From: Candidula unifasciata
Lineage: Eukaryota > Mollusca > Gastropoda > Stylommatophora > Geomitridae
Assembly: GCA_905116865.2 (NCBI GenBank)
Contig: CAJHNH020002076.1
Coordinates: 12,501 to 76,500, forward strand
DNA: 64,000 nt
Direction of reading: 5' to 3'
This document shows, one piece after another, positions 3,962 through 47,300 of the stretch (position 1 is the stretch's first letter; each line of letters starts with the position of its first letter). A program made the position numbers and the translations under genes. Under the pieces are notes generated by a model. That model was not told where the DNA came from. It made no database searches and saw only the letters and a list, made by a program, of their open reading frames with translations.

Positions 3962-4458
3962 AATAAACATAACAGTTACCAGCAAAAGAGGTTTTTGTTC
4001 TCCATAAACATAACAGTTACTATTACTAGCAAAAGAGGTTTTTGTTCTCCATAAACATAACAGTTACCAGCAAAAGAGGTTTTTGTTCTCCATAAACATA
4101 ACAGTGCCAGCAATAGAGGTTTTTGTTCTCCATAAACATAACAGTTACCAGCAATAGAGGTTTTTGTTCTCCATAAACATAACAGTTACAGCAACAGAGG
4201 TTTTTGTTCTCCATAAACATAACAGTTACTAGCAAAAGAGTTTTTTGTTCTCCATAAACATAACAGTTACCAGCAAAAGAGGTGTTTGTTCTCCATAAAC
4301 ATAACAGTTACCAGCAAAAGAGGTTTTTGTTCTCCATAAATATCAAAGTTACCAGCAAAAGAGGTTGTTGTTCTCCATAAACATAACAGTTACCAGCAAA
4401 AGAGGTTTTTGTTCTCCATAAACATAACAGTTACCAGCAAAAGAGATTTTGGTTCTCC
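3962..4458. repeat. 41-bp minisatellite, about 12 copies
   Basis: Tandem units of about 41 bp contain 'acagttaccagcaaaagagg' followed by 'tttttgttctccataaac'. Copies differ by a few bases and small indels. A 69-codon minus-strand frame across it (4,026-4,235) is a product of the repeat and not a gene. Confidence 0.9.
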
Positions 4459-4549
4459 ACTGCTACCAGATGAGATCACAGAAGAAAGATAAGAATTTCA
4501 TAATGTATAATATGGCATCTGCACACTGGATACCTCACAAATATTTAGT

Positions 4550-8300: not shown

Positions 8301-11300
8301 GATATAAAGATGCCAGCGAGTTAGGAGAGCAGGTGCAGGAAGGAGACAAGCAGAGAGATGTAGACAAAACAGAGGGCGATATAGAGAGGCAAACAAACAC
8401 AGAGACAGAAAGGCAGAGTAATATACACCCATACATTCATGGACACAAGAACACCCATACATACACACTGATACAAATACATACAGAGAAAGAGTACCCA
8501 CACTCAGACACTGCAGGCCTATACACACACACACATGCAGTCGTCCTCATACATGCCCACATCCATGGGGAGGGGGGGTATGGAAAAGGCTGCCCTACTA
8601 GTCAACTAAATAAAGTTTCCTTTGAAATCGGCCTGCATCTGTCTGAGAGAAGACAACCTAGCATATCAGAGTGAGGGAGGAGCAGACAATCCTAGACATG
8701 GTCACTGGACACAGGATGGCCAAGGCAAAAGCTTACCTAGGTGTCGCTGCTGACAAAATACCCTCTGCTATGTGAACAAAAATGAGTGCCCATCCATCCA
8801 TAATACATACACACACTTAAACATGTTTAGCATCATAAACACACGTGCATACACATGAATAAATACCCCCCCCCCCTCTCCCCCACGTAACACTTATATA
8901 CTCACATTCATAAATATACAAACACACACACCACATGTACATACACTCATAATCATTCATACACTTTCTTAGTTACATGTACATTCACCCACTCATAAAG
9001 ACGCACACATACAAACCCTTTCACAAATCCTCACTTACACAGACTGATGTGTTAGAATGTGGATATAAAAAACAAGTAATCGAGCATATAACCACACACT
9101 ATGATAGTCTGCCATCAAACTGACATCTGTTTGTGCTGACAACTGATAATACTCAGAGAAAGCAATAACACACAAATACTTTGGAGAAAAAGGATAGCTA
9201 GCCAGGAAGGAATCAGTTGGAGAAAAAGCCAGCTTTATGTGGTTGTGCTGTGTCGGGACGGGATAATGACTGATAGTCTTGGCAGCCTCGGCCACGCTGC
9301 TTTCGCAATGTTTTGATCGTGGCGGTCCACTCGGGAAGACAGAATCTTGTCAGCAGGGGACTGCAACTGTCTAGAGAGCAAACTCGATAAAAGCTGTCCC
9401 CAGAAACGGAATGTGCCAACCATATATTTGGTGGGGAGGAATCGACACATACGGTTAACTCAATGGCCATGCGCAAATATTTATCCAATAGTGGTACCAC
9501 CACGTTGGGTAACAATCAAGTGAAAGCGGGACTCGCTCTCACTTCTCAAACAGGTTTACCCTTAGCCACCAACAGCCCAACGGCTTCCTGCATTGCTAGG
9601 GGAGGACAGGGTGTCACTTCTAACTGCGAAGACACACTTCCACCACTTGTAATCATGCAGTGGAATGCCGAAGGTGTATTTAACAAAAAGAGAGAACTAG
9701 AGGAACGCTTGTGAGCAGAGAAATACTTGACATTATCGGCATTCAAGAGACGCACCTCAACCCAAGTAAAAGATTTCATATTAGAGGATATGAAATATTT
9801 AGCCAAGACAGAGAAAATAGACATAAAGGTGGGGTTGCCACGCTGGTTCATAATTCAATACCAGCTGTTGAACTGCATAGATCCAACCAGCTGAATACTG
9901 AATTCATTGCTGTCCAGCTGCAACTAAAAAATAAAAATATGTCAGTCTACAACATTTACTCACCACCTACCCTCCCCACCGAACTTGAAGCTATACAGGT
10001 TCAAGAGAGTAACTTGCTAATTATCGGAGATTTGAACAGTCACTCACCCAGCTGGGGTTATGACTGTTTAGATGCTCGTGGAGAAAATCTTGAGGAGTGG
10101 CTAATCACAAACTGTCTCACCCTTCTCAATCACCCTGATGACCCGCACACGCACTACTCTAGGCGGTGGCGCACAACAAGCACACCTGATCTAGCATTTG
10201 CAACAGACGACATCCATAAGATATCTGTTAGGCAGGTGTGTGACCAGTTAGGAGGCAGTGACCACAGGCCAGTGAAGATTCTGATAAACAGCCTTAAAAT
10301 AGAAAAATCTCCAGATACTGCACCAAGCTGGAACTACAAAAAGGCAGATTGGAAACATTTTCAAGAACTTGCAGACTCAAACTGCAAAGTAATCAGCCTT
10401 TCAGGTAAGGTTGACAGAGATGCACAAGAATTCAACAAGGCCATACTAAATGCAGCAAAAAAAACCATTCCTAGAGGAAAGAGGCAAAATTACAAGCCAT
10501 ATTGGTCACCAGAACTGGAAGTGCTTCACGGTTCGCCCTGTGATGCTAGAGATAACATGGAAGCTGATCCAACAGATAAACATGTGAAGCAACACAACAA
10601 AGCAAGGGCTCTCTATGTCAGAGAAAGAAACCTTCAGTGTAGAAAGTCCTGGAAAGAAAAGACTGCTTCTCTGAACATGGAAAAAGACACCACAAAATTG
10701 TGGAGACTGACAAAGGCACTTAATGACGACAACCCATCTCATGGAAAAACAGTTCTCCAACAAGAAGGAAATCTACTCACAGGGAAGGAAGCAGCGACTC
10801 TGATGGCCCGAAACTATGAGAAAGAAAGCTCATATTCAGTAACCCTGGAGCAAAAGAAAGCAGTCCGAGATGGGATAAACTCCATATTCAAAAAAGCCTC
10901 TTGTGAGCCATGCATGGAGACAGACATCACTCTAACTGAGCTACTAAGAGCAATGAAAAAACTCAAGTCAAAGAAGGCACCTGGCCCAGACGAAGTTTCA
11001 AACGACATGCTCAAACATATGGGTCCAGTAGCACAAAACATCTTACTCCAGATATACAACTATAGCTGGAAACTAGGCAGAGTCCCAGATATCTGGAAAA
11101 ATGCTATAATCCACCCTATCCTCAAAAGTGGCAAGGACAAGAAGGACCCTCAGAGCTACAGGCCTGTCAGTCTGCTAAGCTGCCCCGCAAAACTGATGGA
11201 GAGAGTGCTAGCCACCAGACTTCAGTGGTTCCTAGAAACCAATCACAAACTGGATCCCGCTCAGACAGGCTACCGACAGCACAGAAGCACTGATGACCAG

Positions 11301-14300
11301 GTAGCATACCTTACACAGGACATAGAAAATGGCTTCCAGGAAAAGAAGAAAACCCTCAGTCTTTTTGATAAAGTATGGAAGGATGGCTTGATGCTAAAGC
11401 TCTTACATAGTGGAATAAGAGGCAGAATGTACTACTGGATACAAGACTTCCTATCACACAGGCGGGCATCTGTGAAACTAGATGAAGCACATAGTCCCAG
11501 ATTCAAGCTGAGAGCAGGAGTACCACAGGGTAGTGTACTGTCTCCAGTCCTGTTCCTGATCTACATCAACGACCTACCTCAAACTTTACCCAGACATGTA
11601 TCACATTCTCTTCATGCATATGACCTAGCTGTGTGGTACACCTCTGAGTTCATTGGACCTGCCATATCAAAACTCCAGGAAAGTGTGAATAGTGTCATAA
11701 ACTGGGCCAACAAATGGGGCCTCGAAGTAAACAGGAACAAAACTGTAGCAACACTCTTCAAACAGATACTAGACAAAACGCAAAATAGAAGTCTGCGTAC
11801 AATTCTGGGAGCCGTAAAATCTACACCTATTGTAGAAATGGAAAAGGCAGCCAACATCATCCCCTTAGAAGAAAGAAGAAGGACAAAAGCAATTCTACAT
11901 GCTGAAAAAATGAAGAGAATGCTAAACCACCCATTACACGAAAAATTGGCAGCCAGGACAAAAAAACAGAATAAAGCGCACAAGCCTAAACCATCTAACG
12001 AAGGAATTTGGAAAGTCATTCTCTTCACTACTTAACCAACAATGTACACCTGAAGAGCTATCTTTCGATCTCTGGGACTCCGAATTATTGACACTCAATG
12101 TGTCAACATCCATCCTCAACCTGGGAAACAAAGATGCTGAGCCCGCTTTAGTGAAGAAAGCACTCACAATGGAACACCTCAACAACATGTTCCCACAGGA
12201 CAGCTGGACAAGAATCTACACGGATGGATCAGCAAAAGAGGCAACTACGGATGGTGGGGCAGGTGTTTACATAAAACACCCAGATGCCACTACTGTGTCC
12301 CTAGCAGCCCCCACCGGACGAACTTGCTTTAACTACAAGGCAGAACTCTCAGCTCTATTGATGGCAGCAAAGAATATGAACAATCTGCAAATCACTGCAG
12401 GCAGGATAGTTTTTCTCACTGACTCACTGTCAGCTATACAGGCCCTTGAGTCCAAACCTACCGACAGCACACTACAAAGTCTAACACAGGAACTTGCTAT
12501 GTTGTCAAATAAGGCAGAAATTCACTTGCAGTGGATTCTGTCTCACTGTGGCTTTAAAGGCAATGAAAGCGCAGATGCTTTAGCCAAGGAAGACAGACCT
12601 ACCAGCCACTATCTTTTCCAGAAGTCAAAACTCTCAATAAGAGAAAATCAAAAACAGATTAGAAAAGCAACACTGGTTATAACTAGGGAAAAGATTTTCT
12701 GAGGCACTTGAACAGAACAGACCAAGTCACAGTTTTTCGCTTACGCACTGGACACTGCAGACTCAATAAACACTCATATAAAATAGGTATGAGCCAAACA
12801 GCTCTCTGCCAGTGTCTTCATGCTGAACAGACTCCAGAACATATCCTGGAAGACTGTCCTCTCCTGGCGGAGCTGCGGAGCGAGAAATGGCAACACCCAG
12901 TAGAACTGACAACTAAGCTTTGGGGAAACCTAAGAGACCTTGAAAAGACATCCCAGTTTATGACCCATAGTGGCTTATGCGCATGACCAGAGATCGCTGA
13001 AGAAGAAGATCTTTTATTCTATTATATTATAACATATGCGTACAGAAATAATTACAATATATCATTTCTAGATATAATTATTTCACCTGCAAATTTAACC
13101 CATCTTCTGGTCACCGTTTTGAAGGAGATATTTATCATCAGTTCTCGTTATGCCTAGTGGCACATAAGGCTTCAGAGAGGACTTTCCATGCTTTCCTGTC
13201 CTGTGCAATCTTCAGTGCAGTTTTCCATGTCAGAGATGCCGCACTCAGGTCACTTTCATTGTTCGTCTCCATGTTGATTTTGGGCACCACTTTTTTCTCT
13301 TTCCCACTGGTATACATGTGAGAGCTGTTTTGACAGGTATATCAGAAGTCATTCTCATAACGTGGCAAAGCCAATTTGATCTTCTCTTGGTTATCATACT
13401 GTCTAGAATTTCTTGGTTTGTGAATTGAAGTAGTTTAGTGTTTGAGATTGTATCTGGCCAGACAATTTTTATAATTCTATGTAGACATGTGTGGTGGAAG
13501 GTGGGTAGCTTGCGCACATCCTTTTTGGTCATTCTCCAGCATTCTGCTCCATAAAGAAGAACTGGCAAAATGATGCTCTTGTAGAGTCAGAGTTTCGTTC
13601 CACTGCAGTTACTGTTGGATTTCCAAATTTACCTCAACTTTCCAAAAGCAGCTCTAGCTTTGTTCAGGCATGACTGTATGTCTTCCTCTGTCCCTCCCAG
13701 TAAGGACACCACACTACCAAGAAATGTGAAATTGTCTATATTTTCAAGTGTTTGGTTATTTATAGTCCCTAGTTGTTGGTTTGGACAGTTTGTCATGATC
13801 TTAGTCTCCCTTGTATTAATTCTCAGTCCCACCATTTCTGCTGTGCTGTCTAGTCTGTTACTTTTCTCTTGTTTATGTTTATGTAATAGGAGTGCTATAT
13901 CATTTGCAAAATCAAGGTCCTCAAGCATGGTGAATGGAGTCCATTGTATGCCTCTCAATGTCTTGTCTTGTGTGTTCTTTAGTATCCAATCAATCACAAG
14001 GTTAAAGAGGAGGGATGACATAACACATCCCTGTCTTACACCTGTCTTTACTGGGAAAGATGTAATTTTTTATACTGCAGAAAAAGTCTTTATAGAGGAG
14101 AGCAATTATGTTGACTATCTTTTCTGAAATTCCATAATGATGTAGTATTTTCCAGAAACTGTCTCTATAGACACTGTCAAAGGCTTTCTCAAAGTCCACA
14201 AAATTAATATATATACTTCTCTGCCATTTATTGCATTGCTCTAAAATGTTGCGTATGGCAAAGATGTGTTCAGTTGTTCCTCTGCCCTTTCTGAATCCTG

Positions 14301-17300
14301 CTTGCTCCACTCGTAGGCATTTATCTACTCCTTTTTCGAGCCACATTATGATGATTTTACAAACAATTTTGCTTGGTACTGAGAGTAGAGTAATTCCCCT
14401 TCAAAAGAGGAGATATTAGTTGACTGAAAATGTACAGACACATGGATTTTGTACTCTATAGTACAGAATATTTCTTTTCAAACGAAACTGAAAATCAATG
14501 TGTATTATTTTTAAAGCCACTTGAAGAGCGACGAAAGATCAACTAAGAAACTATTTTAATAGGAGGGCGTCTGCACGGAACCAATACTTAACTTTCGCCA
14601 TGCAACAAGATTGGTATCAGACAGGGCACTACAGACAGCAATGTTAAACAGATACAGTGGTAACAAGAGCCAGAGGTCAATCACGTAGAATATGGATGAC
14701 AAAAATATCAAAGACACTGATACGCCGGCGGACGGGTGTACTTATGGGGCGAGCAAGACTAACTGACCCAGCTTTCAACATTTACTGGATTTGAAATGGA
14801 TCCACAATGATCAGCAAAAGGATATGGTCATGTACTGACATGATGATTATAATCAATTATCTTGTATACTATACAACAGACATTGCATGTGTCAGTCTAT
14901 CACACAGTACAGTACTGGCCTTATTTTTGGGTGTTGTTATTGTATGATAGTCTAGTGTAGTGGGTATCATGTCCGCCTTACAATCGCAAAGTCTTATGCT
15001 AAACCCCCGGCTGGACTTTTTTTTTAAAACTAAATTTTCGCTTTAACTTCCTGCCACTTTTTGGCAACAGATGACTCAAGTATTATTTTTTGTTTTTAAT
15101 GTAATTACTTAGGGAATACAATTAATTATGATTAAAGTTGCAGCCATGGTAGATTTATCAATCAAATTTTGGAGTAGTGACTGGAAACAGTTCTTCCCAT
15201 TAATCACACCCTCTGTGAGGAGTGGTAGCTTCTTCGGTCAAAACTGTGGGGCGAAGTTTGTGGAGTCTGTGAAACTCTTATTTAGAGTTTCTACTACAAA
15301 TACGGCAGCGCGGAATGAAAAGGATACATTTTCTTTCCCTTTTCTTAGCGAAGCTCGACAATTCAATCTAGTTTATAGTGGTTACTTTAGGTAAAGACAA
15401 GGTTTCTTAGCGTCGCCATTATGCGTCTGACTTGTCAGAGCTCTGGCCAACTACACACCTCCCTAGGGTAAATTTGTTTAGGTGTACAAATATATCCCTC
15501 AACGTGGACGCATCTTTTGCGTTTTAAGGGTAGAAAAGTATTGTGCAAAGGGGATACTTTTTTTTCCCCACAGTGCAGATTGGAACGTAACAGTGAAAGG
15601 GTTGAAATGTGGCATTTGTGCCTTTCTGTCTATTACATTATATTTTATTCTCACATATAAATAGGGGCTTTTAAGCTGAAATGCTATAGAAAGATTCTCA
15701 GAATACCTTGGACAAAAAGAACAGAAAAAATGACACCATTAAAGATCTGAACAGTGACTTGTCTCGGAAACTGACAATTTTGGGCCATATCAAGCGCCAC
15801 TAGAAAATAATATCAATAGGCGTGGAACTGGGGCAGGGGCTGACCAGCACGAAGATGGACACAGAAAATAAGTGACACCTTTGGGAGGAAAGTGCACGAG
15901 GTGAATCTGACGAGAGACCAATTTTCTTATAGGCAGAACATGAGTGTGACGTTTTGCAAAAGCACTGCTACATGATGATAATTATCTTATACTATCTAGG
16001 TACATTTAAATGACACAAATGATGACAGCCACAAGTGACCTTCTGTATATGACTCATCGTCATCCTCCAGGATGCTCTGATTGTCCTCATCTTCCTCCGA
16101 GGTGTCATCGTACATATTACCGGCAGCCTCTTCCCTCTGGACAAACAGCTAAGATAAAATACAACAACACCAAAGACAAATGACAGTTTATATATATTTC
16201 CAATAACACAAATTGACATATTCTCAATGATTCACATGACTATAACAAAATTAACAGCAACTAGAAAGGAATTTGATTGTTTCTTCTTCTAGTTCACTAT
16301 GAAAAACATGGAAGGGGAAGGGGGGTGGGGAGGAGAGAGTTAAAGGAAAGATAGAGAGAAAGGGAAGAAGAAGACTAGAGGAGAGAGAGAGAATGCAAGA
16401 GACAGGCTGGGGGGGGGGGGGGGCTGGGGGAGATTGAGAGAACAGAGTGATAGAGAGGTAAGGGACGAAATGAGACAAAGGATGGAGAAAGGAGAAGAAA
16501 GAGGCAAAACATTCACTTGCAGTGGAGATGTTTTTTTTTTTTTAGATGAATGCAAAAAAAAAAAAATTAATGAAATTATAGAGAAACGAACATGGCTGTC
16601 TTCCTCAAGACAGATAAAAGTCTAATTAAAATAATAAGACACAAAGAGTCTTGTGTTTTCTGAACATGTTATTAAAAGAAAATGCTTGAAAAATTGGTAA
16701 CAGTTGGCAGGACTGATGGAAAGAGAGCAAGAGAAAGGCAAATAGATGGCTCAGCCGCATAGATCAGGATAGACAACAGCACTGACCTGTACCGTTTTTC
16801 TGATGTGTGAGACTGAAATACGGCAAAGACAGCCTATGCTTGCAAGCACGGCACATGATGATGATGACCCAAAGACAACTTATTGTAAACATCAGAATCA
16901 AGCAACTGTCAGCGGTTGAGATATACAGGTATTCTGCATGAACTACGATTCAACTTAAAGAATATCAGACCAACCTCCACTACTGCCTTGATGGCACTCA
17001 TGGTTTTAGGTTGTGACTTCTCTGTGTACTTCACATCCGTCTGCAGGCTCATCATGATCTTGCGGTAAGATTCTTTGTGCTGAACCAGGCCCCTCAGTAT
17101 GCCAAGGCACTGAGGAAACAGGAGAACTGACACTTTACAACCATATAAACTGAGGAAACAGAACTTACACTTTACAACCATATAAGCTGAGGAAACAGAA
17201 CTGACACTTTACAACCATATACACTGAGAAAACAGGAGGACTGGCACTTTACAACCATATAAGCTGAGGAAACAGAACTGACACTTTAAACCATATGACC

Positions 17301-20300
17301 TGAGGAACCAGAACTGACACTTTACAACCATATACACTGAGAAAACAGGAGGACTGACACTTTACAACCATATAAGCTGAGGAAACAGAAGGACTGACAC
17401 TTTAAACCATATAAACTGAGGAAACAGAAGGACTGACACTTTACAACTACATACACTGAGGAAACAGAAGGACTGACACTTTACAACCATATAAACTGAG
17501 GAAACAGAACTGACACTTTACAACCATATAAGCTGAGGAAACAGAACTGACACTTTACAACCATATACACTGAGAAAACAGGAGGACTGGCACTTTACAA
17601 CCATATAAGCTGAGGAAACAGAACTGACACTTTAAACCATATAAACTGAGGAAACAGAAGGACTGACACTTTACAACCACATACACTGAGGAAACAGAAG
17701 GACTGACACATTACAACCATATAAACTGAGGAAACAGAACTGACACTTTACAACCATATACACTGAGAAAACAGGATGACTGACACTTTACAACCATATA
17801 AGCTGAGGAAACAGAACTGACACTTTAAACCATATGACCTGAGGAAACAGAACTGACACTTTACAACCATATACACTGAGAAAACAGGAGGACTGACACT
17901 TTACAACCATATAAGCTGAGGAAACAGAAGGACTGACACTTTAAACCATATAAACTGAGGAAACAGAAGGACTGACACTTTACAACTACATACACTGAGG
18001 AAACAGAAGGACTGACACTTTACAACCATATAAACTGAGGAAACAGAACTGACACTTTACAACCATATACACTGAGAAAACAGGAGGACTGACACTTTAC
18101 AACCATATAAGCTGAGGAAACAGAACTGACACTTTAAACCATATGACCTGAGGAAACAGAACTGACACTTTACAACCATATACACTGAGAAAACAGGAGG
18201 ACTGACACTTTACAACCATATAAGCTGAGGAAACAGAACTGACACTTTATACCATATAAACTGAGGAAACAGAAGGACTGACACTTTACAACCACATACA
18301 CTGAGGAAACAGAAGGACTGACACTTTACAACCATATAAACTGAGGAAACAGAAGGACTGACACTTTACAATCATATACACTGAGGAAACAGGAGGACTG
18401 ATACTTTACAACCATATACACTGAGGAAACATACACTTTACAACCATATACACTGAGGAAACAGGAGAGCTGACACCTTACAATCATATACACTGAGGAA
18501 ACAGAACTGACACTTTACAACCATATACACTGAGGAAACAGAACTGACACCTTACAATCATATACACTGAGGAAACAGAACTGACACTTTACAACCATAT
18601 ACACTGAGGAAACAGGAGGACTGATACTTTACAACCATATACTCTGAGGAAACAGGAGGACTGATACTTTACAACCATATACTCTGAGGAAACAGGAGGA
18701 CTGATACTTTACAACCATATACACGCAGGAAACAGGAGAACTGATACTTTACAACCATTTACATTGAGGAAACAGGACGACTGACATTTTACAACCACAT
18801 AGAGGGGGGGGGGGGGGGGGGGAGAGAAAGAGAATGGGTGGTTAAGAGCCCTGGTCCTGTCATTATCAGTCCATTTGTTGTTAAACATGACTTGTTTTGT
18901 GTCTCACAAGTCATGATTATGAAAATGACACTTTACATTCACGTAGCGATATCAGCACTTATATGCTCCCCGAGTTCCTTTAAGCATGCCACAGTTTATG
19001 AGGGAAACAAATTTAGTAAAGACAATTGCATTAATAAGTTTGTTACAAGCAGCCAGAACAATATTGTTCTGTGTCCTATTTCTCGACATAGTCCTTGCAA
19101 CTTTTGTAGTTCCCCGATCCACAAGACTGAATGCCCACCAGGTAGAGGCTTTTGGGTGTTGCCAGTAACCAAGTCTGCACCATCGACATCACCTCGTTAT
19201 CATCTGCAAACCTTTGACCCTGTTTTTAAATCCTTCCGCATATTTATACTTTTCTCTGACACAAATAACTGAATTCGTATTGAACTTTCATTCTTTTGAT
19301 AAATTTAAGGTTTAACACCCTCTGCCCATTATTTGAAGAAAAAAAAACAACAACACCTTGTTGTTCTTCCATGGTAAATTACCATGTAAACAGGGTTGCC
19401 ACCGTCTTGAATGAGCTGTTTAGCATCCACATACTGCAAAATCACCACATGTAGTTTCGGTATCTGAAATAATATTTTTTCCTCTGCTTACTGTATCATG
19501 CAGACTAGGATACAATTGCTTTTTCTTAGTGACTTCCCCTTGTACATAGGTGATAAGATAGTCATTGTATTTCTAAGTAAGTCCAGAGATCTTTCTTGCA
19601 ACAAAATCTGTGCAAATCTATACTCAGCTGCTATTCACAAGTCTGATATTAACTTTCTATGTTACTGCTTCGACAGAACTGTGGACAGACTATATCCGAC
19701 AAACTATAGTTCTATTAAAATCTGGACTAAAATGTCCCTGTTACTAAGTATTCCTTCTGCCGATATTAGGCCTGCTTTGCCTCAGTCTACTCTCGTCCCG
19801 GAGGAATATCCTCTCTTCTCAATGTGTCAGCAGTTTGTAACATGTCGGCCACCTGTCAAACAGGACAGTTATTCTACTGCAGTAAATTATTTAGTCTGTT
19901 AGCACATTTATCTTCTAACATGCATTTTTTGGTCTCAAATGGAAATTGCCAATGAGCATCTCCTGTCCATACACAAAGCAGGATGTCAGACATTCCTTGT
20001 GATCTCTGGTGGTCATTAGCCTGGAGTTTGCCTGTGTGCTCATCCCCCCCCCCCCACCTGGCCTTGTCTCAACCAATCATGTAATCCCTCTTCTGCTCTT
20101 TTTTCCTCCATATACATGAATTTAATAGCCCATAAATTTTTGTTTTATAACCCAACACTGGTGAATAACCATTTACATCCATACACACTGATCAAACATT
20201 TCTGAAGGACACTTTACACCCATAGACATTACCAATCAAATAGTTCATCAAATTTTTTTTGGGGGGGGGGGGGGGGTGGGGGGGGGGGGGGGGGGAATTT

Positions 20301-23300
20301 CAAATTTTCTGAATAAGTTTAACTATTAATAATAAAAGCCAGGACATACCAATAAGTCCAACTCGAACCTTTTCTCCGTGGGGATATACCAATGTGCTGT
20401 AGTCAAGCACTGAACGATGGTTTCCATCAGAGAGGTCTCCATCTCCGAGTCCAGATTCCTCAGCTCTGAAAGCCAATTTGTCAAAACTTGAAACAGCAAG
20501 CAGTAAATCAGAGCCATTAAATTGATGGCCTGTGGGCCTATCAAGTGGCCCTCATGTCACTGTCAATACTACTGCGGGAGCTCCAGTCTCTGGCCTGTGA
20601 CAATCCCAAGTATTAACACACTGACCCAGGACTAAACTTAGTTCAATAGCCCTGCACTAAATATCCAAACATTACAAATCTTCCACAAATAAAAACATTA
20701 TATACTTTCTCTTCCTCTTTTCTCTACCCCTGGAATGCCTTATAGCGTCAGGGTAAGAAGAGATATCTGGAACAGGCCTTTCTGTTCGCTGTGTCTCTGA
20801 TATGTGTGCAGTCCATGTTTTGCGTGGTGGACCTCTGGCAGTTACCGCTGTATCTGCATAACTGTTGCGTGCTGATTTGGGAGAGTGTAATAGTGTGTGA
20901 AGGGACAGAGGGGTATGATAGTACTTTCTGTGAGTTCAAGGGGAACAGGGTCAACACTGGCCTGAGTACTGAGGGGGAGAGAATGTTGACCAGTGAAAAT
21001 GTATTATCATGAACGAGGCCTGCACGCACGAGAAAGTAGACGCGTGGGTTTCTGTGTGGGGGCTGACAAGCATGGATAACGAGACCCGCAGAGAAAGGCT
21101 GAATTATGTGATAAGGTGATTCTCATGTAACATCAGCCACCCACATAAGCGCTATCCTCGAGAACACCCACACGAGCGTTATCCTCGAGAATCCCCACAT
21201 GATCATGATTCCCGAGAACGCTCACACGCCCACATGAGTTTGGCAGAGATATATAGGGCTGAGTGGTCAGCTGAGTCAGTAAGAGTCCGACAGTCAGAGC
21301 AAGACAGAGAGACCAAGTCGCGGAGCAAAGATGGGGTGACCCGTTTGCTATGAAGCTGAAACTAAGACTACCAGACAGAGTACCGTACAACTATCAGGCA
21401 TCAAGGTCTGAGTAAGGGTTGTGGTACTGGTCGAAGGTATAGTCCCACTGGCAAAGTAAGTCCAAGGAGACTTGATGCTCCAATAGTTACTGTTCTGGGT
21501 GACGACGTGAGGAGACATAAGGTCACCACGGAAACAGAACAGTAGGGATGCCGACGAGAGCTGTGTGCTACAGGGGACTTGTGTTAGAAGTCCTGTCAGT
21601 CATCGGAGTCCTTCGACAGGCTGAGGTGCTGTGGGCACATGCTTGAGAACGCGCAAGTGAAGTCCGTCTTCAGTCAGCCGTTGTTGTCTGCTGAAATAAT
21701 ATCAAGGTCCAGTGAATAGGAGAATTCGTCCTGTTCAGCTGTACGGTGAGCCCAGAGTTGTGGGACGCTGTAGACCTGTGGAGCTGTAGTGGTTAGGGAG
21801 AGGTGGCTACAAGTTGAGAGAGAGGGAGTGAGGACTAAATGGACTATGTTTAAATGTCAATTAGGATCAATGTCTACATCTCTGCAGTTGTGTCCTGTAA
21901 CCTGTTGAATAAAATGTATGACGGAGCTACTGTCGTCGAGTCCTGCTTCGAGTGAGAGGGAGCTAAAGTTTTACCTTCTGGACACTTGGAAGTGTGCTGA
22001 TTAGTGTGTAACTCAGATAGCACACAACAATAACACTGCTCTCTTTCTGATGCCAGTCTTGTTATATGGCCAAACCATTTGACTTGCTGTCTAGCTGCAA
22101 ACTTCAATATTGGTTCTGAGCTGACTCTTCTCCTGATATCATCGTTCCTAAGTCGATCTTTCCTCCGGACACCAAGTATAGTACGTAAACATTTTATTTC
22201 TCTTGTGACTATTTTCCTTCTGTCTTCTGAAGACAGTGTCTATGTTTGACATTGATAGGGTTGGTAAGAATATTGTGTTGAACAGTGTTCTTTTCCCTGA
22301 CAAATAAGCTAGCTCTTTAAAGAGATGTGCATGCAAAACTCTAGTCATGGCACAAGACTCAAGTCCAGTTATACACTCACGTCAGGAATCCAGTCCCACA
22401 ACCAGTACATTGCATTTGTGTTCTCTTTACTAAATGTGGGTTCCAGGAGCTAATTTTCAGGGAGGTAACTGAGACCCACTGCCCCCTACAAGCATGCCAT
22501 AGAGGTGACTAATTAGAGTGCTGCCCCCTACAAGCATGCCACAGAGGTGACTAATTAGAGGGCTGCCCCCTACAGGCATGCCACAGAGGTGACTAATTAG
22601 AGGGCTGCCCCCTACAAGCATGCCACAGAGGTGACTAATTAGAGGGCTGCCCCCTACAAGCATGCCATAGATGTGACTAATTAGAGGGCTGCCCCCTACA
22701 AGCATGCCATAGAGGTGACTAATTAGAGGGCTGCCCCCTACAAGCATGACTAATTAGAGGGCTGCCCCCTACAAGGCCACAGAGGTGACTTAGAGGTGAC
22801 TAATTAGAGGGCTGCCCCCTACAGGCATGCCACAGAGGTGACTAATTAGAGGGCTGCCCCCTACAGGCATGCCACAGAGGTGACTAATTAGAGGGCTGCC
22901 CCCTACAAGCATGCCATAGATGTGACTAATTAGAGGGCTGCCCCCTACAAGCATGCCACAGAGGTGACTAATTAGAGGGCTGCCCCCTACAAGCATGCCA
23001 TAGATGTGACTAATTAGAGGGCTGCCCCCTACAAGCATGCCACAGAGGTGACTAATTAGAGGGCTGCCCCCTACAAGCATGCCATAGAGGTGATTAATTA
23101 GAGGGCTGCCCCCTACAAGCATGCCATAGATGTGACTAATTAGAGGGCTGCCCCCCTACAAGCATGCCACAGAGGTGACTAATTAGAGGGCTGCCCCCTA
23201 CAAGCATGCCACAGAGGTGACTAATTAGAGGGTTTACTAAAATTAGTCATATTGGACCAAAAAGTGCAAATATTGCAGCTTAGCTAATAATAACCACAGG

Positions 23301-29300: not shown

Positions 29301-32300
29301 GTCCTCGTTTTCTCATTCCCATTTCAGAGCCTGTTTGGTGACTATCTGTCGTCTCTCCTCAGAATGTGTCCAGTATAGCACCATATTCTTATAATTGTTG
29401 ATACAAGTGGTTGTCCAGACAGTTCTCTTATTTCTTCAATCTTCTAGAATTCATCCATTCTGTGTTCATCATTTTCATCAGGTGGGTTTTGAATTTATTT
29501 ACTTTCGTTCCATGTTGTTAGTGGTTCTTCAACTTTCACTGGTATATTATAAAAACTCCTAATTTTAGATCTTTACATATATGCGATTATTTCTTTCTCT
29601 GTTTCCTTGACTATCAATATTACCACCCAATTAATTAAAAAACTTTCTATGGTGAACTTAATTTACAGGTTAAGTACATTTAGTTTGAGGAACAGTATAG
29701 CAACCAGGAATTCAGTTTTAAATAATTACTTACCTCTATGTTGGAAAACAATAATGAAGAGAAATCAAAGTTAACTTCTGGATATGAAATTCACAACAGT
29801 TTCAAACTGTTAAAAAAAAAAAACTAGCTAAATGAAGCTGTTTGATGACCAATCAGTATGGAGCAGGAGTCATGAGTGTTAACACATTCAGAAACATGCT
29901 TGAGAGAAGATCAAAGTACTAATGGTAATGTGCAATGACAGACTTTTCTTCTTCTTCTTCAGCATTCCGACGTCTTGAGGTTCATTGCTGCAGATATCAC
30001 CTGCTCCATTTATCTCTCTGGTTGGCCTTCTCTTTCCAGTTGGTGTCGCCAAGTGTTTGCAGGTCTGATTGGATATTATCTCTCCATCATCTTCTTGGTC
30101 TCCCTGGTGGTCTACGACCATTCATATCCCTCGTGTATACAGTTTTTACTTCTCTGTCATCTGACATTCTTTGAATATGCCCCAACCATTCAATGACAGA
30201 CTACCCATTACTATATCATCCTACTCATCCTGTTGTGCCATTACAGGCCACATAAGGCTCACAGTCTAGGCCTCCATTTCTTTCTATCCATGGCAATTCT
30301 TTTGATATCATGGATGGAATCCAGCCCAGCACCTTTGGCCTCTCTGAAATTAGTCTCTGGGTTAGTTTTGTCCGTCCCCACTTCCTCAATAGATTTGCTT
30401 CCAAAATCATTGCTTACCTGGTGATTCTTTGGCTGTTTCTAGTCATGATGTGACCAAAATAGTGTTATTTTCCTTGTTTTGACAGTAGATGTACACAATA
30501 GGTTATGAGCACGTCTTCCGGTGCCCATTTATATGAAACTGGTTGACCTCAGAACTGTACTGGCTTGGCCTGTGCTCAGATACGAATCCATCTATTTACA
30601 AGGCATGCAAGCTCCCGAACAACAATGCGTCTGTGATTTACATCTACCTACAATTCTAAACCATGCAGTTGCCTACCATCTAAAAACTACGATTCTAAAC
30701 CATGCAGTCGCCTACCATCTAAAAACTACAATTCTAAACCATGCAGTTGCCTACCATCTAAAAACTACAATTCTAAACCATGCAGTTGCCTACCATCTAA
30801 AAACTACAATTCTAAACCATGCAGTTGCCTACTATCTAAAAACTACAATTCTAAACCATGCAGTTGCCTACCATCTAAAAACTACAATTTTAAACCATGC
30901 AGTTGCCTAACATCTAAAAACTACAATTCTAAACCATGCAGTTGCCTACCATCTAAAAACTACAATTCTAAACCATGCAGTTGCCTACCATCTAAAAACT
31001 ACAATTCTAAACCATGCAGTTGCCTACCATCTAAAAACTACAATTCTAAACCATGCAGTTGCCTACCATCTAAAAACTACAATTCTAAACCATGCAGTTG
31101 CCTACCATCTAAAAACTACAAATTCTAAACCATGCAGTTGCCTACCATCTAAAAACTACAATTCTAAACCATGCAGTTGCCTACCATCTAAAAACTACAA
31201 TTCTAAACCATGCAGTTGCCTACCATCTAAAAACTACAATTCTAAACCATGCAGTGGCCTACCATCTAAAAACTACAATTCTAAACCAAATAGGAGACTT
31301 ACATTGGCCAAGACCTCAAGACAGCGATTTAGCTTTCTGAGAACAGGTAAAGTCTTCTGGATGTCCTGTGAGATATCCTCTGGCAGGGTATGTTCACAAT
31401 CTGTCACTGTGGATATTAGCAAGTCATGTACGTGATAATCTCCATGTACTTGTCACGTTTTCTTCATTTATCCTCTGCATCACTTTTCCTCTGTGTGAGT
31501 TCTGGGAACCCCATAGTGCGGGGGGAAACAAGAACAGACCCACTGCCTCCCTAAGAAGCATGTTGTAGGAGACTAATTAAGGGAATTCTTCAAAATTAGA
31601 GTGCATCTGTCAGAAAGGCAAGGAACCAACAGTCTGCTTAGAATTAGGTCAGATCTGTGAAACCAGTGCACATGCAAAACTCAGGTCCTTGAACAAAGCC
31701 AAAGTTTAGACATAGACAAACAACAAGTACTTTCCGCCGGGGTTTACAGCTGGTAAATACAAACAACTTCACATATTCAGCCTTAATTTTTTTTAAATTA
31801 CCATCAGGTACCCATAATAAAACATTAATCTCATGTCATCAGCACTTTCCTGTTGTTATACGTTTTATTGTAAGTATACGACCCCTTTCCACGCATTAAG
31901 GCGTACTGGGCATATTTGGCTAGACATACGAGTGACATAAAAAAAAGTATTTTGATAAGATGTAAATATATGAATGTGAAATTCAAAATAAACTTTTAAA
32001 ACGAAGTGGTAACAAACTTGACTGAAAAATTATCAGAATTGTCAGTGCTTAAAAATGAAAAGATCGCATCCCTATCTGACAGATAGAACACACAACACCA
32101 AGACATTAATAAGAACAGCAAGAAAAAGATGTGGAACTGACCTAACAGTGTTACAGATATTGTCGAAGGTAGAAAGAGAGAAAGCAGACATTAAAGATCA
32201 CATCACACAAGAAATGTAAAATATCCCCGTACACATAAAAAGTCAAAATAAACAAGAAATAGAGCTAGTGATTGTCACCATATAAAAATGATAACTGAAA

Positions 32301-35300
32301 GAATTTATGCTCTGATTAAAAAGACTTCACCAGCATTTAAAACAAATGGACGATACAATAAGGAACAAGAATACTTAAAATCACTTTACTTTGGAATGAG
32401 GCATTTCACAGATTATCCATCATGTTTAAATAGTAACGGCTCTGCATAATTCACATCATTCCAGGACTAAGATACCAGACCCACAGAGATGGGATGGGTA
32501 GTAGAGCCAAGACGCTACTTACTGCATGGGACCTAACTCAATCTTTTAAAATAAAACTGTCTCAGAAGAGAGAACCTGACAGAAAAACAAGATGATTCTC
32601 AAGAAACATGTATACCTTTTAACTGTAATAGCTGGACAATTAATGTGATAGAGTTTTTATTTCATAGGACCCGTTCTGATGTACAGAAATCAATCAGACA
32701 GTCAAAAAATTAGTGAGAAATTATGTGAATTCTGCACAAATGTGGGTTTTAGAAGAATGAAGAGAACATTATGGAAAGAAAATAGTGTAATGAAGTTGTC
32801 ATAAAATAAACTAACTCATAAAGAGAATTAGTTATCTATATCATACGATAGGTCCCATTATTTTAGCATGTTAAGAGAAAGAAAAACTGGAGTACCTTCT
32901 CACAACAGGAATACTGGAGGGAAAGAGTTGCAGCTAAAAGATAATATTTTCAATAGTTATGCATCACGACTCAGATGAACTTCAGTATTAGAAATGAAAC
33001 TTACCAAAATCCACAATATGGCTGAGGCCCCAAGGAGACCACTCTTTAAACAATCCACCAGCCTGTTTAAATGTCAAGCTCAGCAAGGACTCCATGGCAA
33101 GGTTACCGGTCTATTAGAGCAAAAAGTTCTATGTAACCTCCACGTCTAGGCTTAAACTTCCATGTAACCTGCACATCTAGACTTAAAACTTCCATGTATC
33201 CTCCACATCTAGACTTAAACTTCCATGTAACCTCCACATATAGTCTTAAACTTCTAAGTAACCTCCACATAGAGTCTTAAACTTCTATGTAACCTCCACA
33301 TCTAGACTTAAACTTTCATGTAACCTCCACATATAGTCTTAAACTTCCATGTAACCTCCACATATAGTCTTAAACTTCTATGTAACCTCCACATATAGTC
33401 TTAAACTTCTATGTAACCTTCATATCTTGGTTGAAACTAGAAAATGCAATAGGCATTGACAACTAACGGGCTGATCCCATGGCCCATTATAATTTGTTTT
33501 TCTTTACTATATTTCACCATTATGTAGCAGGAGGATTTGTCCTGGGAAGTATTAGCAGTTGTATGATAATGATCACATCACCGACCAAGTAGTGACTGGC
33601 TTAGACAAAACTTGGAGCTACTAATCATGCGAAATATGCACTAGATATCACAGCTGATATAAAGTAATATTTCTTTGAGTATCCCATTCTCACCCTAAGA
33701 GTGAAAAGGTGAAGGAGTGGAGGTGGGGTGGACATTCAAACAGACAAATTGGAATGTATCAACCATGTCAGTTAATGCCTTGGAACAGCACTCTGTAATG
33801 TTCCTGACTGCCCAAAGCAAGGCGTGACCCTGGGCGGATGTGGTCAAGGTCAGCTTACACAAAATGCTATTCGTAAGCTGACAATTTACTACAACAGAGC
33901 AATAAGGAACAACACAAGTGTAGAGGCTATGGGAAAGAGTGTTTCAGCTTCACTGCATCACAGTCTTTTAACAGACAAAACGCTGAAATATGCCAAAGCG
34001 GAGAGCAGTCTTGTGTTTTTTCAGTCTACCCTGGCTAAGCATCAGTCCCCAGGTCCTCATGACAAGATGTTACACCCGTGGCTCAACTGTGACAAGCTAC
34101 AGAAATATCTTTAGCAAATTTATGAAAGGCTGTCTGACCCTAAACTACCTAGTAGAGTGTTTCAGGAACAAATTTCAAATGAGAATTTACAGGCCTGAAC
34201 TGGGTTCGCTGTACTAAAGACATGTTTGCCTTATGCAAGTGCGTTCAGTTTGCAGATGTCCCTGCAGCAAGAGAGTTCAACTTTAGCGCTGCTGCTGCTC
34301 AAGACACTGCCCAGTTTTTTTTTAATTTTCTACAGGCCTGCATATGAAGAGACTAGGAGCTTCTAGGATGCAGAAGAGAGTTAGAAATAGCTTGAAATAT
34401 AAGAAGGACAAGCAAACTAAAAGATGTGGCAGTGTACAAGCTACCAAATTGAAAAGGCAAGACGAACTACATGCCTAGAGGGAGGTCCTGCATATGTAGC
34501 AGGATTGATCTGATGATCATGTAATATCAGAAACAGCATTCTTCTTTGTAAAAAAACTTGTTTGAGCATTTAAAAAATTGTGTTAATTTTATCGATTTTG
34601 TGGCTCGTGATAAATATTTCTCAAAAATTACTTTAATTATAATGAAACTTTGTACACTTATTCAACATATACATGTGTGCACCACTCCTTAAATCCCACA
34701 ATGATAAATGTATGCACATTATCTGTTGGCTTTCTCATATTGTCTTATATACCCCCTTTTCTTACTATTTGCTGCCCAGTTTCTATGCATTTCCTTTTGA
34801 GTCAAAATAGATTGTTATCTCATGCTCATATTTTCATTTATTTCAGCGATACTTCAAGTCACATTTCATTCAGTGCGTAAGGACAAACAAGCTATTGATG
34901 ATCAGCGCTCACAAAATTTGCAGTTATGCTTTCCAAACGACAAGCGATTGGCCCATCTACACCTAAAACACGCAAGAGAATGGCATTAATTGCTTCAGAA
35001 ACAGATGAGCAACGTGAGGTGAGACTGGAAACCAGTATGTACATGTTTTTTTGTTTACTTCAAACAAGTGTGTACCAATTCTTAAATCCCGCAATGATAA
35101 ATATATACACATTATCATTAATCATTATTCCCTGTGTGGGTTCCGGGGTCCCATTGTTGGGAAAACAAGAATAGACCCACTGCCTCCCCAAAAGCATGTC
35201 GTAAGAGTGGACTAATTGGGGAGCCTCCTTTGAAGTCGGAGTGCATCTGCCGGAGAGGCAAGGAACCAACAGTCTGTATTCAAGAGAATGAGATCTGTAA

Positions 35301-38300: not shown

Positions 38301-41300
38301 TAAGTCCAACTTGCGAAGACAAACTCCATACACATGGTTTTTTTCCCCTCAATACTAAACTTGCTGAGCTGATTTACTTAAACAACACCTAATCCCTTCA
38401 GAGATCCTGGGTTATTCAATTAGCATCACTTGGAATTTTCTCCAGAGGGTTAGGAAATGGACAGGCCGGCTGGTTCTGCACCACTTGGTGGTAAACTGAT
38501 TCACGACAAGCTAGATGCAGTCAAGAAACTTTTTGAGCAAATAAACAGTGCTAAAGCACAAAGAGATCATGGTCTGGAGAGAATGGTGCGGTGGGAATAC
38601 CAGGGATATGGTCGACACGCAATTCTTAGAGGAAAGGCAAGATAGACATAATATCAAGGTGCTACTGGTTATCATCCATCACCTGTGCTGTTGATAAAGA
38701 TGGAAAGTTTATGGGAATGTTCCAAGGGTGGTTATGTATGTTTTTATTTCAATCCAAAACTTACAGAACAAACCTCACACATGTCTTTCCTAATTATTGG
38801 GACAAAATCCAAACCAAACTTACGGTGACAAAGCCCAGGTCAATTTCTCTGGCAGGTGTTTCCTGTGGCAACTTTACCAATATTTCCATGACCGTCGACT
38901 TGAACTTCTCCAGTTTATTCAAAGCAAATGCGCCCAGACAACCGCGCTCAGCAGCGTCAACCTTTTTTAGTCTTAGCATCAGGTTGAGGTTGTCCTGATT
39001 AAGTTCCATGTTCAGAGAATCACGACTAAGCAAGAACATCATGGCAGAGGTGATCAGTGCCAAACACTAGCAGAGAAATCAAGATAAAGCTAATTATTAA
39101 AAACACAAGGAAAAAAGCCGAACCAGAAAATTCACTCAAGATAAAAATTGCAAGCAAGATTTTTTTAATGAATGTATTTATTTATGTATTTGTGTGTGTG
39201 TGTGTGTGTGCATACTTTCCAACAAGTGTTACATTGTACTAGAGGAAACATAAAAATCATATCAGTTCATCACAGCTCTCTGTCTATCTTGTTTACTCTA
39301 AAGAAAAGGTAGCATCAATACATTTGGAAAGCATGCTGCAGAAGCTGCCTGATCAAAAGAGCAGTGCTCTCTTTGTCTTGCCTCCTAGACCAGCTGACAA
39401 CCAAGGCTGAGGGCCTGGTCAGCCTTGCAATAGCATTACATTTTCAGTCTGCATTTCCTCTTTCTAGGAGAGGTTAATATCTTCCCTCAATGGGCCTGTA
39501 AGCCCAAAGCCCCTGACACAATGGGAATTGTCACGTTTTATGCCAACACTAAGCATTAATAGGGAACAGTCAGTACCAAAACCTAATATCATTTGTGACA
39601 GAAGACCGTCCTTCAGGGATGATGTGGAGGCAGTTGTGGTGAAATGCCAAAAAGGACTCAATGCTCTCAAGATTATGGAAGCAAAGGACATGGAACAAAA
39701 AATGCTGTTCACAGTGTTAAAGCATGTGACCCTGTTGGTGATAGATTATGGACTTGAAATGCTTACCATATCAAAGAGTCAGCTGATGAAACTTAACCGC
39801 ATAGAGAATGAAGCCATGCAGGTAATTCTTGGATGTACAAGAGATACCCCAGTAATATGTAAAAGACCCTTTTCCATGCGTTAAGGCTAGACCTATATTT
39901 TATAGACCAAACGGCACAAGATGGGTTATGTGGTCAGCATCACGCCAGCCGCCTCTACTTCTGGGGACTGCACTGGTACCCACTCAAGGCTGTGTCAACC
40001 CGGGAGCAAAGGTCATTTTTGAAAAAAAGTCTGGCTATGCCAGGGAGTAAACCTACTACCTTCTGATCCGTGGCGAGCGTCTAGCTAATCTGCCACGGAA
40101 ACTCCCACCCCAGTAGTATGTATGCGAGATATACTTGCACTGCCTACTATTGCAGATAGGCTCAAAGTTCTGCAAGCAAAGTCATATCTCAGAGTAGCTG
40201 CAGACAAGAAGCCCTGGATACAGCTAAGGGTCACAGACTGAAAAGAGGAAGATCTTGAACGGCACAAACTGAAGACACAATAAGAGTTGTGTGCAGCTTG
40301 AAAAAATTGTGCGAGGTAAAGAGTTGGTTAAAGTGTCTGAGCAAGTTTCAGACTTGTGTAGGGTTCTTATCACTTTGGGTCGTAAGTGCAGGGATTGGCC
40401 AGCTGGCCCTGCGGAATCAGCAGGTCAACAAATGACTCATGACAATTTCCGCCCAAGTGATGTGATTATCTATACAGATGGCTCTGTGTTGAGGCGCAGA
40501 TGAAGTGAATGGGGTTCATAGTAAAAGCAAAATGGACGTCGCTTAGTGCAACAAAGCCTAGCATATGATATCACAATGTCAAGTTTGAGAATGGAGGTTG
40601 AGGCAGTTACTGTTGCCTTCCGCTGGCTTGAGAACTAGCTGTACACACATGCCGTGATTGTAACTGACTCACAGAGTACGTCGAAAAAGGTGGAAACAGG
40701 TATGGCTCCGGGCAAAGTGGCAACCATCACTTCAGAGGTCCCAGATGGTTAGCATCCTTAGGATATTCTCTCCAGGTCATGTCAGTGTGTTGGGAAATGA
40801 GCAGCCAGATAGACTGGCCGGCTCTGCACCACTTGGTAGTGAACTGATGTATGGGGACAGAGCGCTTATGGGGGTGTCCTAGGTGGTATGATGTTGATTC
40901 TTAATTCAACATTCAAGATAACTTTGCCTCACGCAAGTGTGACAGTTTGCTGTTGTAACTGCAGGAAAAGACTTGCCCACGACACTGCCCAGTTTTCTTG
41001 GGGTGATTTTCTATAGGCCTGCATATGAAGAGACTATTGAGTATCTAGGATGCAGAAGATAGTTATAAATAGCATTAAGTATAAAAAGGACAAGCAAACT
41101 AAGAGACATAATAGTGTACAAGAGGCCAAACTAAAGAGGAAGAGGGGACATAATAGTGTACAAGAGGTCAAACTGAAGAGAAAGAGGAGACATAATAGTG
41201 TACAAGAGGCCAAACTAAAGAGAAAGAGGAGACATAATAGTGTACAAGAGGCCAAACTAAAGAGAAAGAGGAGATATAATAGTGTACAAGAGGCCAAACT

Positions 41301-44300: not shown

Positions 44301-47300
44301 GTCAAATTTTCTTACAGAAACTATGACAAGCAAAAAATGCTGGGTTTGGTTCTGCAACATCCTGTAAAGAATACATAACAATGTTTTTTTTTTTTTCAAC
44401 AAACAGCTATCATATATGGACATGTGATAAACAGGTAAAAAAAAACTTTTTTACTTTTTCTTTTCTTTCACCAGCTATTAACTTCGGGGGAAAAGTTCTG
44501 GTTGTACACCATTTCTGGAAATATGATATGGTCTTGTTCCATACCTTGAGTTTTGCATACATATCTATTTTACAGATCCAGCTCATTCAGATTGAGACTG
44601 TTCATTCCTCATCTCTTAGACAGATGCATTCAGACTTGAAATGAGTCCTAATTAGTTAGTCACTTTGTGTTACATGTTGGTTAGGGAGGCAGTTGGTCTA
44701 TGTTTCCCCAAAATGTCACTGCTTCCATGTTTGCCATCTCAGTGCTTTTTTTTCTGATTCTCTGTCCACTTCACCTCAGAATGTGGCCAATATGGCAGTT
44801 TAAACTAGGCACCCATACTAATTTGCAATTCACAACTGTCACCATTGTGGCTACTCCTTTATTTCGGTGTTTTTCATTTTTTTTCTTTCATGGTATATAA
44901 AGGTTAGCCCTGAAACCACTGTCATCTTCTTCTGCGTTCATCCAAAAAAATGTGAATGCATTGTGCTCGTTTACAGCATTACTGTGATATATGCACCTTT
45001 TAGAAGACACAACTGACTTCAGGCTTTTGTTGCCCAGGTTAGCCTTCCCGGTTAGTTTCTTGGGACACTGCAGTCTCAATGCTGTGTGGTCATCTTTGTT
45101 TTCCAGGTCACAGGTGGTTCCCCTATCAGGCCGGTCCACAGCAGCAATGTAATGCTGGTCAGCAATCAAGAGAAGGCAAGAGTAGAACATGAGCATTTCC
45201 TGCCATCCAAAGAGGCTTCCCTAAATGCAGATCATGGTGCTCTTAGCACGTAGAAAAAGATTAGCAACAAAGTAGCATATGAGATCAGCTATCACTGCAT
45301 GTTACAAATCCTAGCAATTGAAAATCAAAGTGTGCACCAACTATCCTGCAATCCAGGCAAGATTTCAAACAAAACACACACTACAAACAATTATATAAAG
45401 AATGCTGTGATATCTAAGGAGAGAAAACTGAAACCTTTTTTAGAGGACCCATAAGTAATGAAAGTGACCTGTGTGCCCAATCATTTAAATATAGAGACTT
45501 GTAACAAGACTCCTACTGTGATGCTGTACCAAATTTGCTGTTGTGGCACTGCCACATTTAGCCACTTTGAAGTAACATACAGTAATCTACATTAGAACAG
45601 GCATGACTAACACATTATTGATAACTAGAAGAATTAAAAGAACGTTAAAATGATAATTATCAGTTTTATACATTCAACATAATTATATGGCCAAGAACTT
45701 GAATGATTAACATGAAAACATTTAAATGGACCCCAAAGATGTAGATATGTAAAAGAAGATTTTATATTTCAGGGCAACAAAAGCAGTCAAATACAGAGGT
45801 TCTAGACAGATGGATATAACAAGAGGGTTGGTAACAGAAGAAAAAAAAAAAGAAGAGGCAATGGAAATATTTCAGGCACAATATGGGACATCAGATAAAA
45901 GACATACTGGAGGGATACGCTGTAGACAGGTCAGCAAGAGATTGCAAGCAAAACAAGTGAGAAATTAGCATAAGATAGATTTCAGAATACTTAAACCAGG
46001 ATGATTATAAAACAAAGTGTGTGTTATGAAAAAAAAATGTGCCGGGATTATAAAACTAAGTATGAGGGCTATGAAGAAAAAGTCTGGGGATTATAAAACC
46101 ATAAAGTGAAGGAAGTGTGTCAGAATTACAAAACCCACCTGAGGAGCCTGAGACTTGAAATTCTGAGATTGTTTAACACCACACCCTGATGAGACATCAT
46201 CTGCTAGGGTACCTTCTGATGAGGTTACAGTTGAAGATGATAATGTGGCAGAATTTGCTAAAGTAATGTTGGAATGTCTTCCTCTGGTGGCATGTTTTGT
46301 AGAAGATGGGTTGACTGACAGAAAAGCAACTGCACTGCTATCAGAAGATGGTGTGGTTCTCTCTGAATTAGCTACCAAGGCTGACATAATCCGAAGACGA
46401 GCACTTCTCCGCGTGAACACTGCCTCTGTATTGGCTGATGCTGGGGTTATGGATTCCACATTTACATTTTCCCCTGGTGTAGCTTGTGAGAAGGCTGCAT
46501 TTGATTCCACGGGAATCAATGTTCCTTTCTGTTTAGAATTTGGGACACATGTTTTGCCTGGGCTTTAGGTTTGCAAACAACAGTGGTCCTATGAGCTTTA
46601 TTAGCCATTTCTTTCTTAAATACAACTGTGCTTTTGTTTATGCCTTTTGTGGTTGCATCTGGTTTCTCATTCAACTGCTGGGCAGCATGATGTCTATTGC
46701 AGTGCACATTTAACTTAGGATCATTTACGGTCAGAGATTTTCGACCTCTCTGCCAACCCTTTCTTTTAGACCCAGACTTCTGTGGTGGAGAATCAGGTTT
46801 ATCTGCTGGGGTAACTCTAGAGCTGGTTTTCAGAGGATGACCCTTGAACTGAACAGGGAATAAATCATCATCTGTACCCCTATTCTGTGAATTAGTAGAT
46901 GCTTCTAATCTTGCTTTAGAGAAGAACATTGTTTGTCCAGACAGCATCTGCTTTCCAACTTCTAAAAACGGATCCGAGATTACCAATTTCTTGGAAGCTG
47001 TCCTGGAACTGATGCGGAGAGCTGATGAGAAACATGCCTCTTCTTTTCCTTCTTTTAAATATTTATCCGATCCTTCATCTTTCACTTCAGTTTTAGAGGC
47101 AGATAGTTTTGTCATCTGGCGAGGATCATGTTTCTGCGCTATTAGATCCTCTTTCACAGCAAAACTCGATTTCCTCTTATCAACAGTTTTAAAACTGAAA
47201 GTATCTTCTCCTTCGCTTTTGAACTTCATCTTTTTGGTTTCTGTTGCACCATTTGAATTGTCAGGAATGAGGAAAAAGTTGGCTTTCCCCCTCTTTGAAA

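Follow-up and report, generated by a model that had tools for sequence, protein, structure and literature searches.

A minisatellite of 44 splice-acceptor units adjoining exon 10 of a WAPL gene in the land snail Candidula unifasciata

How does a gene cope with an intron that ends in dozens of consecutive copies of a 3' splice site, and where did these copies come from? Both questions are raised by a 64,000-nucleotide stretch of the genome of the land snail Candidula unifasciata (assembly GCA_905116865.2, contig CAJHNH020002076.1, positions 12,501 to 76,500; hereafter the window), whose minus strand carries a WAPL gene with a minisatellite, array A, at the 3' end of intron 9 (Table 1). Array A is likely, in our view, to have arisen on the spot by tandem duplication of the final ~40 bp of this intron and to have been tolerated by way of the acceptor next to the exon.

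Parsed from the acceptor, array A consists of units of 32-41 bp (23 of 40 bp, 12 of 37 bp and nine of other sizes); Tandem Repeats Finder places it at 17108-18801 (44 copies at a period of 40, score 2311) and also detects a higher-order repeat of 309 bp x 5.5. The intronic minisatellite of about 40 copies that the initial annotation had described at the WAPL exon 10 acceptor is thereby confirmed, with 44 units. It takes up the 3' half of intron 9, and its final unit directly adjoins exon 10. A typical unit reads TGTATATGGTTGTAAAGTGTCAG, followed by a polypyrimidine tract and CAG. That every unit ends in CTGTTTCCTCAG, as had been stated, was too strong: this exact ending is found in 33 of the 44 units and CTGTTTTCTCAG in seven, and AG closes 42 of them, the exceptions being the two 5'-most units. 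Long runs of C on the minus strand (G on the plus strand) were noticed at about 18805-18822, which is the 5' edge of array A, and at 20261-20295, about 55 bp past the donor of exon 9.

The window was scanned for WAPL exons with a looser threshold, as a strict one found none. The joined minus-strand exon translations match human WAPL (PDB 4k6j, E 9.5e-24) and the Pfam family WAPL (PF07814, E 3e-10). Searched by itself, exon 10 matches nothing in PDB, and in Pfam two weak unrelated families (E 0.11 and 0.14) but not WAPL; the C-terminal exon by itself likewise matches nothing in PDB. The identity is clear only with the exons joined. The annotated protein of the window gene, P0123, agrees with the assignment to WAPL that had been made from the sequence. 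This protein model is partial; it reads ...KRFELDLL directly followed by CLGILRGLVQHKESYRK..., which places the exon 9-10 junction at the final acceptor of the array and bears out the earlier statement that the last copy is the real 3' splice site of exon 10. P0122, annotated at the sister locus C3461, joins the two exons at the last acceptor as well, and in Biomphalaria (P0121) the exon 9-10 junction lies at the same protein position. The pipeline behind the Candidula models used RNA sequencing (RNA-seq) data (PMC8496239), and use of the last acceptor is supported by this annotation.

The origin of array A can be approached through the other WAPL copies of the same genome. Five WAPL loci were found (C1412, C1042, C3461, C4166 and C2075, the window), a number that is a lower bound from sequence searches. 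Annotated WAPL proteins exist at C3461 and C4166 (P0122 and P0124, respectively); for C1412 (719,396 bp) there was none among the 120 matches listed, and its protein may be split, missing or outside the searched length range. The exon 10 of C1412 is the closest of the copies to human (CLGLLINLVEHRESNR versus human LGLLINLVEYSARNR). The number of units at the exon 10 acceptor rises from none in C4166, where a plain pyrimidine tract is found, through one or two degenerate units in C3461, about three in C1042 and 16 in C1412 (all ending in AG) to 44 in the window. Three of the four sister loci carry related units at this site. This ladder of copy numbers at one acceptor across paralogs indicates local growth of the array out of the acceptor segment, and supports the earlier proposal that array A is an expansion of the authentic acceptor region.

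In C1042, the last duplicate also carries the start of exon 10, with at least 24 nt aligned and a score that was reached by 0 of 2000 shuffles. The window unit, in contrast, shows no similarity to the exon 10 start of any of the five loci (p 0.22-0.95), which makes array A an acceptor-only variant; the idea that the first half of its unit is old exon sequence was rejected on the same values. The mean distance between units is 0.143 within the window array and 0.246 within that of C1412, as against 0.404 between the two, which indicates turnover within each array after the divergence of the genes. Measured against the consensus of the window array, the 5'-edge units lie at 0.17 and 0.15, the 3'-edge unit at 0.07, and the inner unit W10 at 0.35.

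For an assessment of the decoys, acceptors were scored with a matrix built on 37 authentic sites in this genome, of which 11 belong to myosin genes and 26 to WAPL loci (the exon 10 acceptor of C4166 among them); the leave-one-out median is 7.0 and the lower quartile 5.7. The true exon 10 acceptors score 10.4 in C1412, 10.0 in C1042, 10.0 in C3461, 10.4 in C4166 and 8.3 in the window. The true acceptor of C1412 outscores all of its 15 decoys (-0.6 to 7.5, median 3.7), and the best other AG in the 220 bp upstream of that of C1042 reaches 5.5. The 41 decoys of the window that end in AG score 5.7-8.7, with 11 of them equal to or above the true acceptor; that the upstream units would be near-equal acceptors, as had been claimed, is therefore borne out by the matrix. 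The conserved C1412 keeps its true acceptor apart from the decoys, whereas the true acceptor unit of the window is near the array consensus (distance 0.07, versus 0.29 in C1412), a contrast that is drawn within one gene family and with one matrix. As to reading frame, if exon 9 were spliced to one of the 43 upstream unit ends, 41 of which have AG, translation would in every case meet a stop in the array, at most 17 codons on; in C1412, all 15 upstream unit ends lead to an in-frame stop inside the array, within 46 codons.

The window gene is a divergent paralog, with C1412 as the best-conserved copy. No counterpart of the conserved exon 12 of C1412, or of two of its N-terminal exons, was found in the window copy, so that mis-splicing there may cost little. 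The exon parts that were compared are free of stop codons, with a ratio of non-synonymous to synonymous substitution (dN/dS) of 0.31 against C1412 (366 codons) and 0.60 against C3461 (275 codons); the latter is a possible sign of relaxed constraint. An ancient genome duplication has been proposed for stylommatophoran snails (PMC12407731), from which some of the WAPL copies may possibly stem.

From these observations, the most likely course is a neutral expansion, tolerated because the decoys either remain in the intron or give products that are destroyed. Repeated tandem duplication would have acted on the final ~40 bp of the WAPL intron, acceptor included; the spliceosome would still be able to use the exon-adjacent acceptor, with the 43 upstream copies remaining in the intron. 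A transcript that uses an upstream copy would meet a stop inside the array and be removed by nonsense-mediated decay, and the decoys would rarely be used, presumably because exon definition favours the exon-proximal site. We infer that the array itself is neutral, and that wrong acceptors are probably used to some extent in the window copy, since many decoys there are at least as strong as the true acceptor. Four points weigh against this account. The exon 9-10 junction is known from a consensus model of the pipeline, RNA-seq-informed (PMC8496239), and not read by read. The stops are not special: the typical unit holds an in-frame TAA, and stops after decoys therefore need no selection. As many as 34 of the 41 window decoys reach the lower quartile of the 37 authentic acceptors or more, that is, they score like real ones. 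Finally, two of the 195 other AGs in intron 9, outside the array, score 8.9 and so exceed the true acceptor, which means that the matrix alone cannot tell which site is used.

Array A is not the only array at a splice edge. In the five WAPL loci, Tandem Repeats Finder rows (period at least 20, about two copies or more) were merged where they overlapped; removal of a poly-C row and of two arrays located in coding exons left 37 arrays, of which the 27 inside the spans used were placed at random 20,000 times, and the rest kept in place. Arrays lie within 15 bp of an exon edge in five cases (0.72 expected; 8 of the 20,000 placements reach this value), within 20 bp in six (0.87 expected; 5 placements), within 40 bp in seven (1.41 expected; 7 placements) and within 100 bp in seven (2.96 expected; 459 placements). 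With the related exon 10 arrays of the window and C1412 counted as one, the value at 20 bp is reached by 33 of 20,000 placements. Most of the exon edges are approximate, and all were set by hand after the arrays had been seen; given this and the relatedness of arrays, the enrichment is exploratory.

A sample from outside the WAPL loci consisted of myosin-head exons: 32 of 74 matches were taken by hand down the list before arrays were inspected. Several rows were passed over, most of them in very long open frames; some of the exons are paralogous, and the edges of the domain matches served as exon edges. Seven of the 32 exons have an array within 40 bp of an edge; of the 11 arrays within 200 bp of an exon, seven are this close (p 0.002). 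Among decoys shifted by 1.5 kb into the deep intron, one of 20 has an array that close outside the mock edge, although arrays are about equally frequent there (seven of the 20 regions, versus 11 of 32), and the difference between 7/32 and 1/20 is not significant (Fisher p 0.10). Among the seven myosin exons are L054 (C3098:146972-147844, minus strand), where a 44-bp unit spans exon end and donor, with GATGAAGAGAGCAAGTTTCCAAAG and the adjoining GTATGTG repeated ~7.5 times into the intron, and L088, where an array runs into the acceptor.

A broader reading can be entertained, if only tentatively and as a rather unlikely one: splice junctions of this snail genome might be preferred birthplaces of minisatellites, genes would survive where the true sites stay stronger than the decoys, and in the window this contrast would have collapsed, with the array catching up with or overwriting the true acceptor, so that acceptor choice would become a lottery dependent on copy number.

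Should the array act instead as a regulator, the number of competing acceptors would set the share of productive versus poison or exon-skipped transcripts, and copy number would tune dosage. The 41 AG decoys of similar score, all leading to stops, fit such a role, as does exon 10 itself, whose 135 nt and symmetric phase mean that skipping would keep the frame; a precedent is found in human ABCA7, where the length of a variable-number tandem repeat (VNTR) at a donor correlates with exon skipping (PMC5954066). We nevertheless regard regulation as improbable, as the unit count varies from 0 to 44 among paralogs of one gene, as expected of drift, and the gene concerned is the one with the partial protein model in which the conserved exon 12 was not found.

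That an ordinary intronic minisatellite, its unit not derived from the acceptor, came to adjoin exon 10 by chance is less probable still. The genome is full of minisatellites, as the deep-intron decoy regions illustrate, and the first half of the unit has no similarity to exon 10; set against this, the last unit is the acceptor itself, three of four sister loci have related units there, one of them including exon sequence, and arrays within 20 bp of exon edges exceed the number expected. An assembly artefact, with the repeat inflated by long-read errors, is very improbable: arrays are hard to assemble, and the copy number may be off, but the PacBio read N50 of 9.9 kb (PMC8496239) exceeds the 1.7-kb array, the units differ and form the 309-bp higher-order pattern, and a related array lies on another contig, C1412. 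Recursive (ratchet) splicing with the units as zero-length exons, which had been suggested earlier, is the least probable of all and was rejected, since a GT follows at only three of the 43 upstream ends, and all three read GTCATA, which does not match a donor consensus.

The nearest described kind are the 'mirages' of amphioxus, minisatellite-like duplications of intron-exon boundaries in Adh3, the globins BflGb6 and BflGb9, troponin C and PGBD5, which multiply splice signals, reportedly without disturbing splicing, and whose units evolve in concert (PMC3087553, PMC3902484). Array A resembles them in that its units carry splice signals, an AG with a polypyrimidine tract in 42 of 44, and the distances within and between the snail arrays point to concerted evolution, with a mixed picture, however, as to the exclusion of array edges that belongs to the mirages: the 5'-edge units deviate from the consensus more than the 3'-edge unit, and an inner unit more than either. 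Length instability among haplotypes or somatic cells is a further trait of the mirages; the length differences seen here are among paralogs of one assembly. Its ~40-bp unit compares with 10-72 bp in the Adh3 mirage; unlike the BflGb6 mirage with its three or six units of 150-160 bp, it has 44 copies. It further differs from the amphioxus cases in belonging to a land snail lineage and forming a ladder of copy numbers over five paralogs, and from a strict mirage in that its unit is without exon sequence and ends flush with the AG. Strict repeats that include exon sequence are the C1042 exon 10 acceptor, one donor of C1412 and myosin L054. With exon sequence in units of a sister locus and none in the window unit, array A is a relative of the mirages rather than a strict member.

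The nearest functional precedent is the VNTR in intron 18 of human ABCA7, whose 25-bp unit contains the donor; one retained unit leads to a premature stop, and its length, which is polymorphic in people, correlates with in-frame skipping of the next, symmetric exon of 44 residues (PMC5954066). Array A shares with it a unit that contains a splice site and a position abutting an exon; it differs in lying on the acceptor side and in being known from the sequence of one assembly, whereas the ABCA7 repeat is on the donor side and linked to skipping by correlation. In a model of intron gain, tandem duplication of AG/GT boundaries creates spare splice sites (PMC3087553); the snail duplicates differ in staying inside an existing intron. 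A gastropod intronic minisatellite of polymorphic repeat number is known from the abalone TSSK1-like gene (PMC6905558), where the accessible part of that source does not put it at a splice site. Boundary minisatellites that copy splice sites in invertebrates beyond lancelets were not found reported in the accessible parts of the open-licence literature.

Taken together, the five loci present one acceptor with 0, 1-2, ~3, 16 and 44 copies in a single genome, a natural series that allows direct tests of whether the spliceosome, faced with near-identical acceptors in a row, chooses the first AG, the one nearest to the exon or the strongest. Should arrays at splice edges prove common in snails, polymorphism in intron length could often matter for splicing there, and gene prediction could set exon edges wrongly.

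Table 1. WAPL exons and tandem arrays at splice edges in the window
Feature	Position	Strand	Description
Array A, minisatellite from the 3' end of intron 9	17110..18804	-	44 units, flush with exon 10 acceptor
Last unit of array A	17110..17149	-	authentic exon 10 3' splice site; score 8.3 with genome-derived matrix
WAPL exon 10	16975..17109	-	135 nt, phase 0 at both ends, CLGILRGLVQHKESYRK...AIKAVVE
WAPL exon 9	20350..20466	-	ends ...KRFELDLL, donor GTATGT
Intron 9	17110..20349	-	
WAPL exon 11	16041..16148	-	LFVQREEAAGNMYDDT..., 3' end approximate
WAPL exon TGNLAMESLLSL...	33005..33110	-	
WAPL exon TDCEHTLPEDISQDIQ...EVLAN	31303..31406	-	
WAPL exon CLALITSAMMFLLSRDSLNM...	38824..39066	-	
Array B	33123..33419	-	31 bp x 9.5, ends 12 bp before acceptor of exon 33005-33110
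Array C	30648..31288	-	39 bp x 16.4, starts 14 bp after donor of exon 31303-31406
Array D (small)	46003..46099	-	43 bp x 2.3, begins 39 bp downstream of the donor of predicted exon 46139-46314

Of the further arrays at splice edges (Table 1), array B has its single-copy homologue in C3461, beside the corresponding acceptor (p 0.0005); the match in C1412 is weaker (p 0.075), and C4166 has none (p 0.42). The unit of array C is homologous to the single-copy, donor-proximal intron sequence of C1412 (0 of 2000 shuffles) and also matches single-copy sequence of C3461, with the match starting at the donor (p 0.002). At C1412:74159-74241, a 36 bp x 2.3 repeat spans the donor of the WAPL exon FGPMIKMLKKFLNFMSLT, and its second copy keeps GTAAGT; exon end and GTAAGT together make it a strict boundary repeat. 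In C4166, a small array lies 16 bp after a donor.

Several other repeats were noticed. The window is rich in minisatellites: three in or near the gene, at 22479-23232 (42 bp), 27627-28000 (46 bp) and 3963-4459 (41 bp), adjoin no exon that was found. At 41103-41427 (minus strand), the unit of a 42-bp x 7.8 array, CTCTTTCTCTTTAG followed by TTTGG..., resembles a strong acceptor, with no WAPL exon found beside it. A 32-bp x 4.3 array at 3043-3181 (minus strand), with units 99% alike, starts ~30 bp after an AATAAA signal, perhaps at the 3' end of a transcript. In C3461, a 66-bp x 4.7 in-frame repeat lies within a coding exon (11896-12207) and is seen as repeated MPVRRSARLQNVSALVANSKET in P0122. 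No hit came from searching the window for Rfam families and tRNAs. Reading frames at 36211-37349 (plus strand) resemble a helicase of the Helitron/PIF1 type. A long interspersed nuclear element in the WAPL gene region (9684-12702, plus strand) has two long overlapping frames (endonuclease and reverse transcriptase, then RNase H-like), and its best match is in the slug Arion vulgaris, with 77% over 70% of the query.

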